A DNA stretch of 64,000 bases from Cyanobacteria bacterium FACHB-DQ100 (GTDB taxonomy: Bacteria > Cyanobacteriota > Cyanobacteriia > Leptolyngbyales > Leptolyngbyaceae), in contig JACJNW010000028.1 of the NCBI GenBank assembly GCA_014695195.1, positions 310,001-374,000 on the forward strand. Reading direction: 5' to 3'. The number at the start of each line of letters is the position of its first letter. Position 1 is the stretch's first letter. The translations under genes and the position numbers were made by a program. Of this stretch, positions 39,153 to 50,387 are shown in pieces. The notes below the pieces were generated by a model. It did not search any database. It saw only the letters and a program-made list of their open reading frames with translations, and was not told where the DNA came from.

Positions 39153-40742
39153 ATGAGAAGAGAAGCCTCTAGAGCAGCAACTTACGGATTGATTGCAATC
39201 CTACTGATGGCAGCAATTCTTCGGTTTTATAAAGTTGATCAGCCCTTTATTGATGCAACAAGTTGGAGACAGTCTGATACTGCCACGATCGCGGATAACT
39301 TTTACAGAGGAAACTGGAATATCTTTTATCCGAAAATTAGCTGGAATGGGCCAGGAGATCAAGTTGTCGGATATGAGTTTCAGACGATCAGTTATCTTGC
39401 GGCGTTGTTGTACCGCATTGTCGGGCAGCATGATTGGGTTTGTCGCGCGATTGCAATCGTCTTTGGCGTGTGGGGCATTTTCGCGTTTTACCAACTGTTG
39501 CGCCGCGTTTGGGGTCAGAACTATGCCGTTGTCGGGGCCGCAGTCCTAGCGCTGTTACCCGGTGCAGTTTATGTCGATCGCTCCTTTCTCCCCGATCCAG
39601 TTATGCTATCGCTGGTGATTACGAGCGTTTGGCTACTTGTCGCCTACCTGCAAACAGAAAAACTGCATTACTTACTACTCGCAAGCTTGGCTGGGATATT
39701 CGGCTTTCTGACCAAGATCTCCGGCTTGATTGTAGGAATCCCGATGCTTTATGCGATCGTTACCATTCTAGGCCAGAAACAAAATCGACGCTTAAAGCAG
39801 CTTACTTTAATTGCGGGTGCTGGCGTTGTCACTCTAATTCCGGTCATTGCCTATTACGCTTGGGCACTCCACCTTTTTCGCACCCAGCCGCCTTACTATG
39901 TAGCCGCTGGCGAATACTGGGTTTGGAAATATGGGCTATCGCGGTTTCTAGAACAGAATTACTTTTTACCAAAACTTTTATATCAATTGCGCTGGTTCTG
40001 GACATTGCCCGTCATAGTTCTCGCGATCGTTGGATTGTTTCTGCGTCCACCGTCTCACAACGAGTATAAAGCGCCTTGGCTATTTCACATTTGGATGCTT
40101 GCATTTGGGTTTTACTACGCGATCGCCGCTCAAGGCTTAGTGAATAATCCGACAAACCTGAACCTATCAAATCCTGCTACAGCGGCTCTCACCGCCCATA
40201 GTCTGATTAAAATCGCTGCATGGATTCGAGCAAAACTGGGAACACGAGCATCATTAGCGTGGATGGCTGTGGTTTTACTCTTGATTGGTGGACTTGGGCA
40301 AAGAGCATTGCACCGATTTGCGCTGCGACCTTTTGCCGAACAGGACTTCAAACTCGGACTCGCTTTACGGCAGGCGGCTCAAACCAATGAACTGGTTGTC
40401 ACTGCGACTTCAACACCTGGGGATGCTGTTACAGTTTATTACAGCCAGCGTCGAGGATGGGTGTTTCCTCCGCTTTATGCTTGGTCTTCGTCACTCTCTC
40501 AGTTGGAGGATGAAGAAGGAATTCGATTGTTAAAAGAGCTTGCAGGCAAAGGAGCAGATTGGTTTGGACTGGTTAAACCCGAGCAGTTTGCGAGCCAGCA
40601 TCCTCAGCTCATGGAATATCTCGATCGCAACCTATCTCGCTATCAAGCTAGTCCGGAGTTCACAATCTACCGCATTGGGCCAAAAAAAGGGACATCGATC
40701 AATGCCCCTTTTTCATCTGATGTGAGAAACGAAACTAACTAG
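39153..40742 (+). CDS. Membrane glycosyltransferase, GT39/ArnT-like
   Basis: 529 residues with about ten to twelve transmembrane helices. The N-terminal loop WRQSDTATIADNFYRG and later DRSFLPDPVM match the PMT/ArnT superfamily, which moves sugars from polyprenyl-phosphate donors. In this family the acidic residue in the first loop is catalytic. Acceptor unknown. It begins 5 bases after the molybdoenzyme stop and could be co-transcribed. Its 3' end overlaps the convergent sigma-factor gene by 8 bases and contains a terminator. Confidence 0.82.
   Translation: MRREASRAATYGLIAILLMAAILRFYKVDQPFIDATSWRQSDTATIADNFYRGNWNIFYPKISWNGPGDQVVGYEFQTISYLAALLYRIVGQHDWVCRAIAIVFGVWGIFAFYQLLRRVWGQNYAVVGAAVLALLPGAVYVDRSFLPDPVMLSLVITSVWLLVAYLQTEKLHYLLLASLAGIFGFLTKISGLIVGIPMLYAIVTILGQKQNRRLKQLTLIAGAGVVTLIPVIAYYAWALHLFRTQPPYYVAAGEYWVWKYGLSRFLEQNYFLPKLLYQLRWFWTLPVIVLAIVGLFLRPPSHNEYKAPWLFHIWMLAFGFYYAIAAQGLVNNPTNLNLSNPATAALTAHSLIKIAAWIRAKLGTRASLAWMAVVLLLIGGLGQRALHRFALRPFAEQDFKLGLALRQAAQTNELVVTATSTPGDAVTVYYSQRRGWVFPPLYAWSSSLSQLEDEEGIRLLKELAGKGADWFGLVKPEQFASQHPQLMEYLDRNLSRYQASPEFTIYRIGPKKGTSINAPFSSDVRNETN
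40684..40713 (-). terminator. Terminator of the sigma-factor gene, inside the glycosyltransferase 3' end
   Basis: AAAAAGGG (40684-40691) pairs with CCCTTTTT (40706-40713). Read on the minus strand the stem is followed by seven T, a good intrinsic terminator 22 bases past the sigma stop. On the plus strand it lies 27 bases before the glycosyltransferase stop codon. Confidence 0.7.
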
Positions 40743-43243: not shown

Positions 43244-44266
43244 TTATTCCAGTTCAGAAATCGCTCGATTACTCGCGGCTTGCAGCATCGCTTTCAGGCT
43301 TTGGGGTTCTGGATAGGCAGGAGTCGGGCGCTCGAACTTCAGCGGCAGATTTGTGAATTTTGGCAAAATTTCTCGGCAGAACGCATCCGCAGCTTTCGAT
43401 CGATATCGAGTCGGGTTAATAATCACCGAGAGATTGCGCTTCACGACTACATCTTCAATTCTGGCGCGATGCAGCATTCCCATTTGCAACTCTTTCTCAA
43501 TCGCAGACACCGACACAAACGACGCGCCTAAACCCGACTGAACCGCGTTTTTAATCGCTTCGATCGAATTCAGCTCCATCTCAATTTTGAGGCGGCGGGT
43601 TTCAATGCCACAGCGTCCTAAAACTTGGTCGATCACCTTGCGAATCGTCGATTGAGAGTCGAGGGCAATAAACTGCAAACGATACAAATCGTCTTTCTGG
43701 ATCGTTTCTAGGCGGGATAAAGGGTGAGACGGAGGCAAAATCAGCGCGAGTTCGTCTTCGGCATAGGGAATAATTTCAAGCGAGTCTTGAAGTTCAGGAG
43801 AAATCTCACCGCCAATAATCGCCAGATCGATCTGACCATTCGCCACGCTCCAAGAGGTTCGTCGTGTGGAGTGGACGTGCAACTGAACCGCTACATCCGG
43901 ATACTGCTGTCGAAACAACCCAATCATGCGCGGCAACAAATAGGTTCCCGTCGTTTGACTTGCGCCAATAATCAGCGTCCCGCCCTGGAGATTCTGCAAA
44001 TCTTCGATCGCGCGGCAAGTCTCCTGACAAAGCGTTAGGATTTTCTCCCCATAATTTAGAAGCAAATGTCCTGCTTCGGTCAATTGCGCTCGTCGTCCAC
44101 CACGATCAAATAAGGGCACGTCAAGCTGGCGTTCTAAATTCTGAACCTGTAGACTTACCGCTGGTTGAGAAACGTATAAGCTATCAGCAGCCCGCTTAAA
44201 GCTGCCCTCAGACGCGATCGCCTTCAAAATACGTAACTGATCGAGAGTGAAAGGAAGGTCAGACAT
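43244..44266 (-). CDS. rbcR: LysR-type regulator, RbcR-like
   Basis: 340-residue LysR regulator. The N-terminal helix-turn-helix reads [19 protein letters not shown], then [20 protein letters not shown]. The effector domain starts with [19 protein letters not shown]. The [13 protein letters not shown] segment and overall sequence match the RbcR (Ycf30) type, which activates RuBisCO and carbon-concentrating genes in response to Calvin-cycle metabolites. The ATG at 44266 gives MSDLPFTLD; a 19-residue upstream extension is not homologous. The rbc genes are not in this window. Confidence 0.87.
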
Positions 44267-44480
44267 ACGGCTAAGCCTAAAGTGTGAGGAGCTTGAATTA
44301 CACCGGGAGATCAATGCGTTCACTCTAAACTGGGAAGCCAGCTAGAGAGTGTGAACAATTATGAAGAACAATCAAAAATGGAAAAAATAGGCAAGCTTTA
44401 GTTGCGCGATCGCGCTGAGTCAAATTTCCTCCAGCGATTGATGTGGCAAGTATTGTACAAAACGATGAGCAAATCAGCCT

Positions 44481-44825
44481 ATGAACCAGGAAGTTATTCA
44501 GGACTTTCTGAATGTACCAGGAATCACGGGAATCGCCCTATTTATTAGACAGTCTGAGCCAGTTTTTTACAGCAGTCATCCTGAGATTTTTCAAGGGTGA
44601 TCGCAATTGCTGGCTGAAGGCATTCTACGAGTTGTCGAAACTATCCCAACTGAATATGAAGTGCTTGAGTTTCAGTGCGCTCAAACTCAAGTGGTGCTGC
44701 ACGACTGGTTTCGCGCTTGGGTGGCTCAGTTTATTCGTCGCTGTTCTCAAGCGGTGAGCGATTATGCCGTCCTCGTCGAACAACACGCCCTCACGGATAC
44801 CCAAAAAGCTCTTTTATTGCCCTAA
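44481..44825 (+). pseudogene. Gene interrupted by an in-frame TGA at the head of the PAP-like cluster
   Basis: Translation from the ATG at 44481 gives MNQEVIQDFLNVPGITGIAL and on to HPEIFQG, then TGA at 44598-44600. The same frame continues as SQLLAEGILRVVETIPTEYE to ALLLP before the natural stop. The first part resembles the start of a roadblock/LC7-like domain. One C-to-T change would explain the stop: GGCGATCGC (a HIP1 site) became GGTGATCGC, turning CGA into TGA. A TTG at 44607 could restart translation of the last 72 codons. Readthrough cannot be excluded. Confidence 0.65.
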
Positions 44826-44842
44826 ACACTATTGCCCTAAAT

Positions 44843-45253
44843 ATGGTGAAAACGTTACGCCTTGAACCGATCGCCCAAGACAGCGCGATCGAAACAATGG
44901 GGAATCTCCTCTCGGTGCTTCTCAACAAAGATTTAGATGTTTTAAAAGAATGTGGCGGGCATGGAAGGTGCGCGACTTGTCATATCTACGTCAGGGATGG
45001 AATGGCTTCTTTGACTCCAATCGCTCGACGTGAGCAGCGCACTTTGGAAGTGATCACCTCTTGTAAGCCGAATTCACGATTGGCGTGTCAAGCGAGAGTT
45101 ATCGGGAGTGGAGTCGTCGTGGAGCTACCTCCAGGAATGTATGTCAACTCGATCAAAGACATCGAAGCGCTAATTGGTCGCAGAGCTGAACAGGATCTCC
45201 TACATCCTTTGACCGGGCAAGTTCTGGTGGAAGCGGGAAAATTAATTACCTGA
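44843..45253 (+). CDS. [2Fe-2S] ferredoxin, Fd5/Slr0148-like
   Basis: 136 residues with the plant/adrenodoxin-type cluster motif KECGGHGRCATC (C-x5-C-x2-C) and the fourth ligand in SRLACQ. The N-terminus (MVKTLRLEPI) and long C-terminal tail are not those of photosynthetic PetF. In Synechocystis the comparable ferredoxin (slr0148, Fd5) belongs to the PAP operon and is phosphorylated by the kinase SpkG. The start is the ATG at 44843. An upstream frame in the preceding pseudogene is a shadow. Confidence 0.82.
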   Translation: MVKTLRLEPIAQDSAIETMGNLLSVLLNKDLDVLKECGGHGRCATCHIYVRDGMASLTPIARREQRTLEVITSCKPNSRLACQARVIGSGVVVELPPGMYVNSIKDIEALIGRRAEQDLLHPLTGQVLVEAGKLIT

Positions 45254-45379
45254 TCGATGCTGAAAAAAATCGAAGACACGACCCCTTTCAATCCGTCAAA
45301 TTACTTCTCGAATTCGTCTAGCGTTTAGATTCACAAAGAAACAGGGAACGCTTCAAACAACTCTAAATCGATAACGCTT

Positions 45380-45853
45380 ATGTTGAGTCAGATCCAGCGG
45401 TTAACGCAAGAAACCGAAGGACGCTACGCCACCGATGAGGAACTCCGTTTTCTAATTGAGTATGCTCGATCGTATGAGTTGCGCGTCCAAACCTATCAGA
45501 AGCTGCAAGCCTTTGAAGCGGTAATCATACAGCAGGTACAAGCGAAAATGAGAGCGATCGATCCGATGTTGTTTCGTCAGGGCAACGAGGATTTAACAAA
45601 TAAATGGAAGCGCGATACAGTGCGAGTTCTGCGCTACTCTGCCGCTACGATGCTGATTGACGACCCAGAGTCGATGCGGGAACGGTTTCTCTTTTGGTTT
45701 CAGACGATGATGCGGGCGTTTAATGCTCAGAAAAGCTGTGGTGTCACTTACACAGTAATGCAGGATGTGATTAAACAGGTTTTAACGGTCAATGAAGCGA
45801 ATTTGATTTTACCGATTCTAGAATTGAATCGCCGGATGCTTGGAACAGTTTAG
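45380..45853 (+). CDS. Allophycocyanin-like globin-fold protein, no bilin cysteine
   Basis: 157 residues aligning with phycobilisome subunits: an N-terminal helical hairpin (YATDEELRFLIEYARSYELR) and the KRDTVRVLRYSAATML segment equivalent to the chromophore helix. The bilin-binding Cys is absent (NKWKRD instead of CLRD), so no covalent pigment is expected there. Similar proteins are encoded in the PAP operon (slr0146 and slr0149 type). It may bind other tetrapyrroles or assembly partners, which is inference. Confidence 0.78.
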   Translation: MLSQIQRLTQETEGRYATDEELRFLIEYARSYELRVQTYQKLQAFEAVIIQQVQAKMRAIDPMLFRQGNEDLTNKWKRDTVRVLRYSAATMLIDDPESMRERFLFWFQTMMRAFNAQKSCGVTYTVMQDVIKQVLTVNEANLILPILELNRRMLGTV

Positions 45854-46027
45854 CAGCCAGCTTTTCGCTTCGTTCTAGACAGAGAGATGCTCCTAACTTC
45901 CCCATGAGTAGAAGACTTGAAGCAGGAAAGTTTCAAAACTCCGAATCTGGGCACACTGAAACCCATCAGCGCATCTGTTGTCGCTTCACTGATTGGCTAC
46001 TTATTGCTTGACCCCCCTAGAAAACTT

Positions 46028-46708
46028 ATGCCCATTGCACTTTCTCATCAAACCTCAGCAAAGCTCAAGAATCCGAAAAAACATAACCACTACGGATTCA
46101 AAGACTTTTATCAATTCAATTCGGATACAGGCACGATCGTTGATTGGAACAACAGTCAAAACATTCTCACATCTGAAGATTTCATCATTGGTTTGGTTGA
46201 AGGACTCGAAGAAGAAGTGGGTGATGCTTCAGCGGCAACGATGTACACGATCGGCTGCGAGTGGGGTCAAAAAGATGCGTTCTTTTTCGAGAAATGGTTT
46301 GAAAAAGAATACGATCGCCCGATGCGTCAAACCAATCTAATGTTCTTGCTTGAAACTTGGTGGTGGTCGTTTACCGCCCAGGGTTGGGGACGCTGGGAAG
46401 TGGATTTGGGCGATCGCAAACAAGGATTCATGTTCATCAGTGTGTTTGACTCAGCCGTGGCGCGGACGCTGGGGGATGTGGGTAAACCGGTTTGCTTTTT
46501 ATATGCTGGATTGTTTGCTGGCTTTTTTACGGAATTGGTGAAAAAACAGCTTAGCTGCATCGAAATTCAGTGCTATTCGATGGGCGAAACCTACTGTAAG
46601 TTCCTCCTTGGCGGACAAGAACGGATTGATGCAGCATCCTTTTGGCTGAATGAAGGCGCGACTGCAAGAGACATCGAAAAACGGCTCAGAGCAGGAGAAC
46701 TCCGATGA
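46028..46708 (+). CDS. V4R domain protein, PAP-operon type (copy 1)
   Basis: About 226 residues. The C-terminal half is a V4R (4-vinyl reductase-like small-molecule-binding) domain ending with GLFAGFFTELVKKQLSCIE and QCYSMGETYCKFLLGG. V4R domains bind tetrapyrroles or similar ligands. The ATG at 46028 (MPIALSHQTS) is preferred to the TTG at 45917, whose extra residues look non-coding. Its stop overlaps the next gene (ATGA). Confidence 0.82.
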   Translation: MPIALSHQTSAKLKNPKKHNHYGFKDFYQFNSDTGTIVDWNNSQNILTSEDFIIGLVEGLEEEVGDASAATMYTIGCEWGQKDAFFFEKWFEKEYDRPMRQTNLMFLLETWWWSFTAQGWGRWEVDLGDRKQGFMFISVFDSAVARTLGDVGKPVCFLYAGLFAGFFTELVKKQLSCIEIQCYSMGETYCKFLLGGQERIDAASFWLNEGATARDIEKRLRAGELR

Positions 46709-47019
46709 CTCTCATGCTGGAACAGAACGACCTCCAAGGTACTCAGAATTGGCTATATTCTTCGGTTCAAACGTTTTTCACAACCTGCAATTGGGAAGAT
46801 CAACCTATTGCTCCAACGCCGCAGGTGGTTCAACAGTTGGAACAAGCCGCCGCGATCGAGCCATTGACAGAACTTTCATTCAACTTACCAGTCGGTCAAT
46901 TTTTCGCTGCAATTCATTGGGAAGGAACCGCAGCCCGACTTTCCCTAGTTGAACCTCTCGAATCTTCTTCAGAACCGACAGATGACTTTACCTTGACTGA
47001 TTTTTCTGATTTGTTTTAA
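46705..47019 (+). CDS. Small acidic protein of the PAP-like cluster
   Basis: 104 residues, start overlapping the V4R stop by 4 bases. Acidic and compact (TCNWEDQPIAPTPQVVQQ and then LNLPVGQFFAAIHWEG-like text) with a C-terminal DDFTLTDFSDLF. By position it corresponds to slr0145. No function known. Confidence 0.72.
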   Translation: MTLMLEQNDLQGTQNWLYSSVQTFFTTCNWEDQPIAPTPQVVQQLEQAAAIEPLTELSFNLPVGQFFAAIHWEGTAARLSLVEPLESSSEPTDDFTLTDFSDLF

Positions 47020-47035
47020 TGTGACAGGAACGCTT

Positions 47036-47530
47036 ATGCAATCTCCCATTCACGAAATTTTTGATGAAGCCGAACACCGCTACCTCAAACCCGAAGAACT
47101 TCAATTAATCGGGCACTATGTTGGCTCAATCACAGACCGCATCCATGCTTATCGAGCCTTGCGCGATCGAGAGCTTGACTTAATTCAACAAGCTGCCGAT
47201 CAGCTCCAATTCGATCTGCCTGATGCAGAACTCGCCGTGTTAGAGCGAGCAATTAAAAACGGAATGTTAATCTTACGCCACTGTGGAATGGCGATGCTGC
47301 TAAATGACCCGAACTTTGTGCAGTCTCGGCTGCTAGATTGGCTCAAAGACTCGATCGAACTGCATCAAGCACAAGGTGCAGATGCTGCTTTCTTTGAATT
47401 GATGAAACAGCAACTGCGTCTGTCACTGGCTCCACAGCAGATGGCGCTTCTACAACCGTTTCTCAATCAAGCCGAAGCGATCATGCCAGCGCAGCCCGAA
47501 GAAATGCTCACCGTCGCAGGGATTTTCTAA
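47036..47530 (+). CDS. Second allophycocyanin-like protein of the cluster
   Basis: 164 residues, starting MQSPIHEIFDEAEHRYLK. The start is the ATG at 47036, with AGGA 7 bases upstream; a GTG at 47021 is also in frame. It has the phycobilisome helical hairpin (KPEELQLIGHYVGSITDRI) and a chromophore-helix equivalent (KNGMLILRHCGMAMLL) without the usual CxRD cysteine. It is separated from the next V4R gene by 2 bases. Confidence 0.75.
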   Translation: MQSPIHEIFDEAEHRYLKPEELQLIGHYVGSITDRIHAYRALRDRELDLIQQAADQLQFDLPDAELAVLERAIKNGMLILRHCGMAMLLNDPNFVQSRLLDWLKDSIELHQAQGADAAFFELMKQQLRLSLAPQQMALLQPFLNQAEAIMPAQPEEMLTVAGIF

Positions 47531-47532
47531 TC

Positions 47533-48189
47533 ATGATTTCTGTTAGCGATTTATTGATTCGCGATCGTCTGCCCGCGAACTACTACGCCAGCGATATCTA
47601 TGTGCGCGGCGATCTAGAAATGGGGTTGCTTGAAAGTCGACGGGGAGATCGATTGCTCTCGCTGCCTGAAGCATTCATTCAGGGGATTTACTCTGGGCTG
47701 AACAAAGAAACAGGTCAAGCTTCGCGATTGGTTTTATTTAACTGCGGTCGCTGGTGGGGGAGAAATTTCTTTAATCGCTTCCGGGATGAAATGAGCGATT
47801 ATTATAGAGCGCCGCTAGTTGAAATGCCAATGGCAGACTTTTTGCAAGCTTTGAAGCAATGCTGGATGACTTACGGTTTAGGCAAACTGAGCTTAGATCA
47901 GACCTATCACGATCGCGGATTTCTCGTTGTGGAGACAACAAATTCGCCGTTTGCGCGAGTTGCGATCGATCCTGTGCTGCCATCTTGTCATCTAGAAGCA
48001 GGAGTGTTTGCGGCAATCTTTAGTCAGCTTGCAGAGCGAGAGCTACACTGTGTGCAAACGCGCTGTGAATCTTTGGGAGCTGCAAGTAATCTGTTTGTGG
48101 TTGGGCTGAAAAAGCGGCTAGAGCAGGCTGAGAGTTTGGTGGAAAAACAGCTTGACCACGAATCTATTCTGCCTCGTTTATTGGTCTAG
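47533..48189 (+). CDS. V4R domain protein, PAP-operon type (copy 2)
   Basis: 218 residues, related to copy 1 (for example FNCGRWWGRNFFNRF against IGCEWGQKDAFFFEKW, and AGVFAAIFSQLAERELHCVQ). It ends with CESLGAASNLFVVGL, the V4R C-terminal signature with the ligand-site Cys/Gly pattern. It would be the last intact gene of the cluster. The broken kinase gene begins 18 bases later. Confidence 0.8.
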   Translation: MISVSDLLIRDRLPANYYASDIYVRGDLEMGLLESRRGDRLLSLPEAFIQGIYSGLNKETGQASRLVLFNCGRWWGRNFFNRFRDEMSDYYRAPLVEMPMADFLQALKQCWMTYGLGKLSLDQTYHDRGFLVVETTNSPFARVAIDPVLPSCHLEAGVFAAIFSQLAERELHCVQTRCESLGAASNLFVVGLKKRLEQAESLVEKQLDHESILPRLLV

Positions 48190-48207
48190 CGTGGGATCGA
48201 TTGAGAG

Positions 48208-49256
48208 GTGTCTACGCTATCAGACGCTAAGTTCAAGCCATTCAAGTATCGCATTCTAGGATTGGTGGGTCGGGGGCAGTTTGGGCTTTTCGGGTCTGCA
48301 CACAGAAATCATAGCGGCGCATCTCAATCAACCTGTGCGTATTCCAGCGCATATTCCAACATCGCTGCAAACTGCGATTTCTACAGCGCTTGAGAAGTTA
48401 AAGGCGCGAAGATTTCAGTCTGCGGCTCAAATGCGGGCTGCGCTGCAGTCTGCGGCTGCACAAACATTTCAAGTAGGTGCTCAAAATCGAACAACTCCGA
48501 TCGCTCCGCTATTCTATCTGCCTGAGATTTTGCGGAACGAACGGTTGCCCGCTCAATCTGGGCAGATTGGAGTCGTAGAGACGGCTACCCTTCCCCAGTA
48601 CGATCGCTATGTTCGTCGATCCGCCTTAATTTTTCTCAGTCACGTCGAAACGCTGCAAGCTCGTTCGTATCCGATGGGATTCGTCGATCGCCGAAGTGGA
48701 AAAGCTTTACCCATTGCTACCCTTGCAGAGCCAATTCGGGAATTAACTGTGCGATCGCAAGGCTGTTTTGCGGTGACAGAGCGATCTGTTTACCGGCTTT
48801 CTGAGCAAGCGCCGCAATTGATAACTCGACTGCATCACCCATCGCGAATCGCGATCGAGCCACAAGGGCGCTGGATGGTAGTTGCAACGTTGAGAGACCA
48901 GGAGAGTGCAAAGCTTTTGGGCTTTTGGACGCTGCCGCAGCCTTGCTGCAACCGAAGTTGAACATGAACGATCGCTGCTGTTAGTGCATCTCAAACCGTA
49001 TCGGTTAATTCGGCTTACGATCGCAATTCGTCCTCAATTTGTTGCGGCTTTTCCTTGGGGAGTGGTTGTTTGCGACGAGGAGCAACTCATTGCAATGGAT
49101 TACAACGGGCAGCAAATTGGACAATCAGAAATTCCGCAAGGCATTTGCGCGATCGCGGCGCATGGAGAAACGGGACTCGCGATCGCAACGTGGCATCAAG
49201 CGGAAAGCGCACTTTACAGCTTGAATCTTGAAGCGATGCGCTCCGCGAGCTTGTAA
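48208..49256 (+). pseudogene. Broken SpkG-like Ser/Thr kinase gene
   Basis: The first frame starts at the GTG at 48208 and reads KPFKYRILGLVGRGQFG, the glycine-rich loop of a Hanks-type kinase. Sequence then jumps into another frame that reads FSGLHTEIIAAHLNQPVRIP and ALEKLKARRFQSAAQMRAAL, the final helices of a kinase domain. Nearly all the catalytic domain (VAIK Lys, HRD, DFG) is missing. The C-terminal beta-rich region then runs to about 48950, shifts frame by +1, and ends at 49256 (LYSLNLEAMRSASL). The gene therefore carries a large deletion and at least one frameshift. Confidence 0.78.
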
Positions 49257-49287: not shown

Positions 49288-50001
49288 ATGGCTTTTGACT
49301 GGTTGACTTCCAGCCATTTCATTATGTTTGGATGGCTCGTCGGGTTCGCGATCGCGCATAGTGGGCTGGCATCACTGCGAATGGTGGCAGAAAAACGGAT
49401 CGGGGCACGACTGTATCGGGTGATTTTTGCGCTGGTGAGTCTGAGTATTGCGGTACCCATGCTGATCTACTTTTTCAATCATCGCTATGACGGCTTACAG
49501 CTTTGGAATGTTCAGGGCGTTCCAGGCGTTTCTACGATCGTTTGGATTTTGTCAGCAATTTCGTTTTTGTTCCTCTATCCTGCGACGTTTAATCTGTTAG
49601 AAATCGCGGCGATTCAAAAACCGCAAGTGCATCTATATGAAACGGGCATTATTCGGATTACGCGACACCCGCAAATGGTCGGACAGATTATCTGGTGCGT
49701 TGCCCATACCTTGTGGGTGGGCAGCAGTTTTATGGTTGTCACTTCGATCGGGTTAATTCTGCATCACTTGTTCGGAGTGTGGAACGGCGATCGGCGGTTG
49801 ACGGCGCGATATGGTGAAGCGTTTGCAGCGGTGAAAGCGAGAACCTCGATCGTGCCGTTTGCCGCGATCGTCCAAGGTAAGCAGACGCTTGAACTCAAAG
49901 AGTTTTTGCGGGTTGCTTATGTCGGAGTGGGGGCATTCACTCTATTATTTTGGTGGCTTCACCCAATCGTAATTCGTGCATCTGGGAACGTAGGCTGGTA
50001 G
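49288..50001 (+). CDS. NnrU family membrane protein (Z-ISO relatives)
   Basis: 237 residues, about six transmembrane helices. ITRHPQMVGQIIWCVAHTLW and HHLFGVWNGDRRL show the NnrU/methyltransferase-like membrane fold with conserved His residues. Plant 15-cis-zeta-carotene isomerase belongs to this family, and bacterial NnrU is associated with denitrification. Which role applies here is open. The ATG at 49288 is 31 bases after the kinase pseudogene. The frame extends upstream to 49228, but that is the overlap. Confidence 0.8.
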   Translation: MAFDWLTSSHFIMFGWLVGFAIAHSGLASLRMVAEKRIGARLYRVIFALVSLSIAVPMLIYFFNHRYDGLQLWNVQGVPGVSTIVWILSAISFLFLYPATFNLLEIAAIQKPQVHLYETGIIRITRHPQMVGQIIWCVAHTLWVGSSFMVVTSIGLILHHLFGVWNGDRRLTARYGEAFAAVKARTSIVPFAAIVQGKQTLELKEFLRVAYVGVGAFTLLFWWLHPIVIRASGNVGW

Positions 50002-50048
50002 CATGATCCCAAGCCTTAGTAAAAGCAAATAATAATTTTTGGAGAACT

Positions 50049-50387
50049 ATGCAAGCAGGAATTAGCGAAGGGGCGTTTAACCAAGAAGTTCTTGAATCAA
50101 CGACCCCGGTTCTTGTGCATTTCTGGGCACCTTGGTGTGGGATCTGTCGCTTGATCGAGCCATCGCTGAATTTACTCTTGAAGCAGTATGGCGATCGACT
50201 CAAATTGGTCGGAATCAACGCAGATGAAAATTTGAAGCTGGCAAGTCGCTATCGAATTACCACACTGCCAACAGTATTGCTGTTTGAAGGGGGTCAGGTG
50301 CTGCATCGGTTAGATAGTTATCAGCGGCGTGAAGAGCTACGATCAATTCTCCAAGAACTTCTGGTTGCGCCTGCGAGATCTCGGTAA
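50049..50387 (+). CDS. Thioredoxin-family protein with CGIC active site
   Basis: 112 residues, single thioredoxin fold: FWAPWCGICRLIEPSL active site and cis-proline TTLPTVLLF. The usual WCGPC is WCGIC, which would alter the redox potential. It lies 47 bases behind the NnrU-like gene on the same strand and ends at a strong terminator. Partner unknown. Confidence 0.88.
   Translation: MQAGISEGAFNQEVLESTTPVLVHFWAPWCGICRLIEPSLNLLLKQYGDRLKLVGINADENLKLASRYRITTLPTVLLFEGGQVLHRLDSYQRREELRSILQELLVAPARSR

Follow-up and report, generated by a model that had tools for sequence, protein, structure and literature searches.

A PAP/BBAG-type gene cluster with a broken kinase gene and a broken head gene in Cyanobacteria bacterium FACHB-DQ100: probable early loss of an inherited cluster

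Introduction

The subject of this paper is a cluster of photosynthesis-related genes in a 64,000-nucleotide stretch of the draft genome of Cyanobacteria bacterium FACHB-DQ100 (5.5 Mb in 44 contigs); the whole stretch, which lies inside a 1.2-Mb contig (G000:C28:310001-374000), is called the window below. Its closest described counterpart is the slr0144-slr0152 (pap) operon of Synechocystis, which two reports connect with the assembly or repair of photosystem II (PMC4853703, PMC9145668). Other reports state that physical interactions among Slr0144-Slr0149 were validated by affinity purification-mass spectrometry (PMC9880817) and that in Synechocystis the kinase SpkG is required for phosphorylation of the ferredoxin Fd5 (PMC11863333). 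A second described system is the cyanobacterial BBAG cluster, in which, according to PMC10151467, two V4R proteins and a globin are encoded together with an Fe-S protein. The same paper calls these clusters variable, many genomes having lost them, reports their wide absence, Nostoc punctiforme included, and places the CXRD bilin motif in some, not all, cyanobacterial BBAGs, so that the motif is not required.

What the window has in common with the pap operon is the pair of V4R proteins, the pair of phycobiliprotein-like globins, the bacterial-type [2Fe-2S] ferredoxin and the small protein, and the intact relatives of the window also share the SpkG-type kinase at the end. The Synechocystis order, V4R-small-globin-V4R-ferredoxin-globin-(fd150)-TPR-kinase, is not the one seen here, as the ferredoxin and one globin gene precede the V4R genes. 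Moreover, a gene that we call X stands at the head of the cluster, no slr0150/slr0151-type genes are labelled within it, and X and the kinase gene are both broken, leaving no intact SpkG gene in the window. For this comparison the published gene list and a stand-in locus with the full nine-gene order (L182) were used in place of the PCC 6803 sequences. Both V4R types, the Slr0148-type Fe-S protein and the phycobiliprotein-related globin (two proteins, assigned by their match to PF00502) are present, and the locus is a PAP/BBAG-type cluster, ordinary for cyanobacteria, whose gene order is the inherited one of its genus. The features of the locus, all in window coordinates, are as follows.

43244-44323, minus strand: divergent LysR-family regulator, which flanks the cluster in relatives with the same order
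44481-44825, plus strand: what remains of gene X, whose intact product of 233 residues has a roadblock-type N-terminal domain and a conserved C-terminal one, with TGA at codon 40 and a 358-bp internal deletion
44843-45253, plus strand: bacterial-type [2Fe-2S] ferredoxin of Slr0148/Fd5 type, 136 residues (Pfam PF00111, Fer2, E 1.2e-7)
45380-45853, plus strand: phycobiliprotein-like globin in the Slr0149 position, with WKRD for CXRD (PF00502, Phycobilisome, E 5.1e-18)
46028-46708, plus strand: V4R protein of Slr0144 type, 226 residues (PF02830, E 3.9e-22), 99% identical to that of FACHB-63
46705-47019, plus strand: small protein in the Slr0145 position, 104 residues, without a Pfam match; it recurs between the first V4R gene and the second globin gene in relatives
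47021-47530, plus strand: phycobiliprotein-like globin in the Slr0146 position (PF00502, E 2.8e-9)
47533-48189, plus strand: V4R protein of Slr0147 type, 218 residues (PF02830, E 4.1e-13)
48208-49256, plus strand: remnant of the SpkG-type Ser/Thr kinase (600 residues when intact), with two frame-shifting deletions of 545 and 209 bp
49288-50387, plus strand: downstream neighbours, an NnrU-like membrane protein (a working label, as no NCBIfam family matched) and a thioredoxin; this conserved flank was used to locate the empty site in genome G009

An open core between two broken genes

The six core genes (ferredoxin, two globins, two V4R proteins and the small protein, 44843-48189) are all open and intact. 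An initial annotation, made from the window alone, had named this set of parts and recognised a PAP-type cluster; the Pfam matches bear out the parts, and the cluster is indeed PAP-type (slr0144-slr0149-like). The tight spacing that it described from the first V4R gene onward is also real, with a 4-base overlap with the small gene followed by gaps of 1 and 2 bases. The interval that it marked out, 44481-49256, has a gene remnant at either end. Its further proposals, that the cluster is partly decayed and has lost its regulatory kinase, are confirmed by comparison with the sister strain FACHB-63, which served as the intact reference (locus L039, on the same contig as G007:C137). Relative to the FACHB-63 kinase, the window copy lacks 545 bp and 209 bp, both losses shifting the frame and the second joint carrying a 3-base repeat, and residues 27-208 and about 428-496 are thereby removed. 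The first deletion takes out all the kinase motifs noted in the full-length protein (residues 40, 130, 152 and 177), the Lys, catalytic-loop and DFG motifs among them. Gene X is intact in FACHB-63 (open reading frame, ORF, at 5104-5805 of L039), and the window copy lacks 358 bp with one foreign base at the joint, a net loss that stays in frame, in addition to its early stop. No second copy of X and no second SpkG C-terminal part were found in searches of this genome, which contains 22 Ser/Thr kinase matches.

The relatives were sampled as 80 loci (the best 80 of 263) and a further 60, with 7 duplicates between the two sets. A kinase gene follows the second V4R gene directly in 72 of the 80 loci that could be scored (30/33 ferredoxin-first and 42/47 without a nearby ferredoxin). 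Scoring required both V4R genes, 2.5 kb or more of sequence after the second one and the absence of a ferredoxin behind or inverted beside them, and the 7 duplicates were dropped. A few of these kinases may be broken too, given the short frames in L096 (90 residues), L112 (339) and L113 (421). The BBAG paper describes the genes adjacent in Synechocystis as often absent (PMC10151467), whereas here the kinase adjoins the cluster in most sampled relatives. In L096, a metagenome-assembled genome of Hormoscilla sp. SP12CHS1, the ferredoxin and V4R matches are also split, which may represent a further decayed cluster or errors of that assembly.

Of 71 FACHB-63 ORFs in a syntenic stretch of ~79 kb, 57 are intact in the window genome, seven are flagged and seven have no match. 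Those flagged are X, the kinase, an over-long ORF with an intact ferredoxin part, two ORFs whose full-length matches fail the ORF-containment rule and two small ORFs; X and the kinase are the only ones among the 71 that could be shown to be conserved genes with internal deletions in the window. General gene decay around the locus is not supported. In the reverse comparison, whose ORFs were not checked singly, 54 of 71 are intact, 11 are flagged and six have no match; this list includes genes of 529, 455 and 244 residues that are absent or partial in FACHB-63, and the sister therefore also differs by nearby gene losses or gains. For the 529-residue gene (39153-40742) the syntenic FACHB-63 sequence gives no match, which marks an insertion or loss of ~1.5 kb.

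Loss of the cluster in relatives and its occurrence across the phylum

Two members of the family have gone further towards loss. In G011, X is frame-broken, the ferredoxin is partial and 60% identical, a V4R gene contains stops, the kinase is truncated and one globin and the second V4R gene are missing, the decayed pieces (L197, L198) lying at two contig ends. G009 retains the LysR gene, a stub of X without a start (L200, 8767-8976), the NnrU-like gene and thioredoxin, with the rest of the cluster gone, and its congener G313 carries the full intact cluster. The stub in G009 is the footprint of a lost cluster.

Across a phylum sample of 291 genomes, the Slr0148-type ferredoxin was found in 50 at E 1e-15, and among the matches listed 49 of these 50 also have the first V4R gene; the other, G043, has the ferredoxin and a sole V4R match of the second type. 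The cluster appears to behave as a unit, because among the matches listed the ferredoxin and V4R matches fall in the same 50 genomes.

Gene X, a neglected member of the cluster

The predicted model of intact X from L039 (233 residues; mean predicted local distance difference test score, pLDDT, 83.2; predicted template modelling score, pTM, 0.50) consists of an N-terminal part and, beyond a linker that varies, a C-terminal domain of ~108 residues that is conserved (model pLDDT 94.5). The N-terminal domain is predicted to adopt the roadblock/LC7 fold (Foldseek best E 1.1e-5) and aligns with MglB of M. xanthus at a VIA-align Z of 13.9 (root-mean-square deviation 2.3, 108 aligned). Unlike MglB-type roadblock/LC7 proteins, X carries the additional C-terminal domain, which has no clear match in the PDB: Foldseek returned none at E 0.001, the best VIA-align Z was 5.3, mostly to H-NOX structures and too weak to use, and a profile of the domain reached only E 0.025 against PDB sequences. 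No Pfam family matched X above cut-off, and the nearest approach was by a GNAT model (E 0.006, with 16.7 of 26 bits). No GTPase gene is labelled in the cluster, although no search aimed at GTPases was made.

The position of X is highly regular where the ferredoxin comes first, as it lies directly 5' of the ferredoxin gene in 37 of 39 such loci. Among the 14 strongest X matches in the phylum sample (E 4.4e-14 or lower, counting that of the window itself), 12 are within 500 bases before the ferredoxin gene, the exceptions being G027 and G134. In five of these 12 (G028, G035, G049, G065, G240) the X-ferredoxin pair and the V4R genes are at least 10 kb apart or lie on different contigs. A protein with the X C-terminal domain also precedes a V4R gene in L159, L163, L172-L174, L176 and L180. 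Two of these proteins were scanned, that of L159 and, of the X-related pair in L174, the more distant one; both have pentapeptide repeats at the N-terminus. The X-domain proteins of L185 and L188 match a receiver domain weakly, under the Pfam cut-off. As judged from these sequences, the C-terminal domain is joined to differing N-terminal parts, pentapeptide repeats in several Synechocystis-type lineages and a receiver-like part in two deep loci, beside the same kind of cluster.

We met no mention of X as a cluster member in the parts of the literature covered by our search, including those of PMC13326532, PMC7363133, PMC10651672 and PMC7860145, and our data point to it as a neglected gene of this system. 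A tentative and rather doubtful extension would make X, with its roadblock part and its new domain, a regulatory partner of the Fd5-type ferredoxin that has so far gone unrecognised, forming with SpkG a switch on the ferredoxin in lineages without an adjacent Slr0151, in which case the window strain would have lost both halves of the switch and kept the machine.

Stepwise loss or a stable kinase-free core

We consider it likely that the window shows a cluster of the known PAP/BBAG type in the course of stepwise loss, with its putative ferredoxin-regulating genes lost first. In this model, separate deletions inactivated X and the SpkG-type kinase and the six-gene core was kept. X adjoins the ferredoxin gene in ferredoxin-first clusters, from which we infer that X, together with the kinase, acts on the ferredoxin. 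The core is presumably still expressed, and its complex, if made, would run without control by X and the kinase. The strain would thus stand at an early stage, of which the mostly decayed cluster of G011 and the X stub of G009 would be later ones, and the loss would be expected to go on.

The ferredoxin itself, whose best solved-structure matches are putidaredoxins, offers some indication of change. Its four Cys columns are conserved in 77 of 77 aligned rows, and its cluster-binding loop reads CGGHGRC in the window, with R40H and M42R; column 40 is R in 74 of the 76 other rows and Q in two, and column 42 is M in 69 of 76 and R in two. The window protein has Thr at both phosphosites of Fd5, Thr18 and Thr72. 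At genus-invariant sites the core has 11 replacements in the window against 6 in the sister (1 against 3 in five neighbouring genes), and the end branch of the window in a tree of the V4R proteins is 0.038, compared with 0.014 for FACHB-63. These selection signals, the loop changes among them, are suggestive only.

Several observations weigh against this model. The excess of core replacements on the window branch is not significant (Fisher p 0.27), and thus does not establish relaxed selection. The open core and its low ratios of nonsynonymous to synonymous substitution (dN/dS) fit stable use without a kinase as well as they fit early decay. One of the 22 remaining Ser/Thr kinases might replace SpkG or act on the ferredoxin, and part of the state of G011 could be due to assembly, since its cluster runs into contig ends. 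The linkage of X to the ferredoxin is also limited across the phylum sample: of the 36 genomes (of 291) with an X match, 14 have it within 500 bases before a ferredoxin gene and seven before the first V4R gene (eight, with G212, if 509 bases are allowed), and in the rest it lies elsewhere.

It is possible, if against our expectation, that the six-gene core is instead kept permanently and works constitutively, the kinase and X being dispensable in the habitat of this strain. All six core genes are open, pairwise dN/dS against FACHB-63 is 0.04-0.16 for five of them (0.32 for the small gene), and the replacement excess falls short of significance, all of which suits such a core; the substitutions R40H and M42R inside the cluster-binding loop, and the two family members further along towards loss, do not. 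A natural kinase-free strain paired with an almost identical intact sister makes it feasible to test, by comparing the two, how SpkG and X bear on the ferredoxin.

Assembly or sequencing errors are a highly unlikely source of the breaks in X and the kinase: the assembly is a draft of 44 contigs, but three separate deletion joints and a stop would have to be spurious inside a 1.2-Mb contig, with the core genes between the broken ends staying open. Still less probable is that the remnants are functional, for instance through separate production of the C-terminal part of SpkG outside the kinase domain. A frame of 226 residues does remain open at 48281-48961, yet the earliest start codon in it, a TTG, falls on the first joint, it ends past the second frame-shifting joint, and the last ~105 residues of the SpkG protein are in another frame.

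Gene order is inherited

The initial annotation had also called the cluster permuted, and this part of it does not hold. All seven genus relatives show the order LysR (divergent), X, ferredoxin, globin, V4R, small gene, globin, V4R, kinase, NnrU-like gene and thioredoxin, as far as the contigs reach (the contig end falls inside the kinase in G003 and before thioredoxin in G005); being recurrent in seven of seven, the arrangement is not due to chance. The Synechocystis-type position of the ferredoxin, behind the second V4R gene, occurs in 24 loci. To place these orders we used a tree of joined V4R proteins (95 rows after a 93% identity filter, built by a quick method, with branch support from the Shimodaira-Hasegawa-like approximate likelihood ratio test, SH-aLRT, only), scoring ferredoxin position for loci whose ferredoxin is nearby and not inverted. 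Ferredoxin-first loci occupy the root row (L189), other deep rows and the clade of the window. Ferredoxin position changes twice on the whole tree and once when seven long-branch rows are removed, L186 and L187 with the ferredoxin behind among them, the 18 remaining ferredoxin-last rows then forming one clade with SH-aLRT 100. The order of the window is therefore inherited, and the Synechocystis-type order looks derived, once or twice. The order is thus the common one in related genomes, the outcome that the annotation itself had named as counting against permutation, and the result corrects the likely ancestral order of a cluster for photosystem II assembly that has been studied for the most part in Synechocystis. 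That the cluster is a rearranged Synechocystis-type operon, as its difference in order from slr0144-slr0152 might suggest, is refuted for this strain by the shared order of its seven relatives and by the one or two position changes on a tree with ferredoxin-first loci at its root and in other deep rows, and we give it next to no credence.

The annotation was right that no slr0150/slr0151-type gene is labelled in the cluster, but this is normal for ferredoxin-first loci, none of which has one labelled, and is not a loss specific to this strain. Elsewhere in the genome there are four plant-type ferredoxin matches, and an slr0151-type query returned 14 partial tetratricopeptide repeat matches, none of them full-length. 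In L046, L050 and L055, which have no Fd5-type ferredoxin nearby, a plant-type, slr0150-like ferredoxin gene lies inverted at 271-638 bases ahead of the first V4R gene.

In the Slr0149-position globin, W replaces the bilin-anchoring Cys at residue 76. Over 85 loci with this globin, the window and the 7 duplicates left out, the residue is W in 44 and C in six where the gene lies before the V4R genes, C in 26 and F in one where it lies behind, and W in five, C in two and V in one where it is inverted. Seven W/C changes on the tree rule the residue out as a clean clade marker. The globin in the Slr0146 position has Ala in a column where 14 of 130 rows have Cys, and the V4R proteins fall by profile score into two types of 140 and 132 rows.

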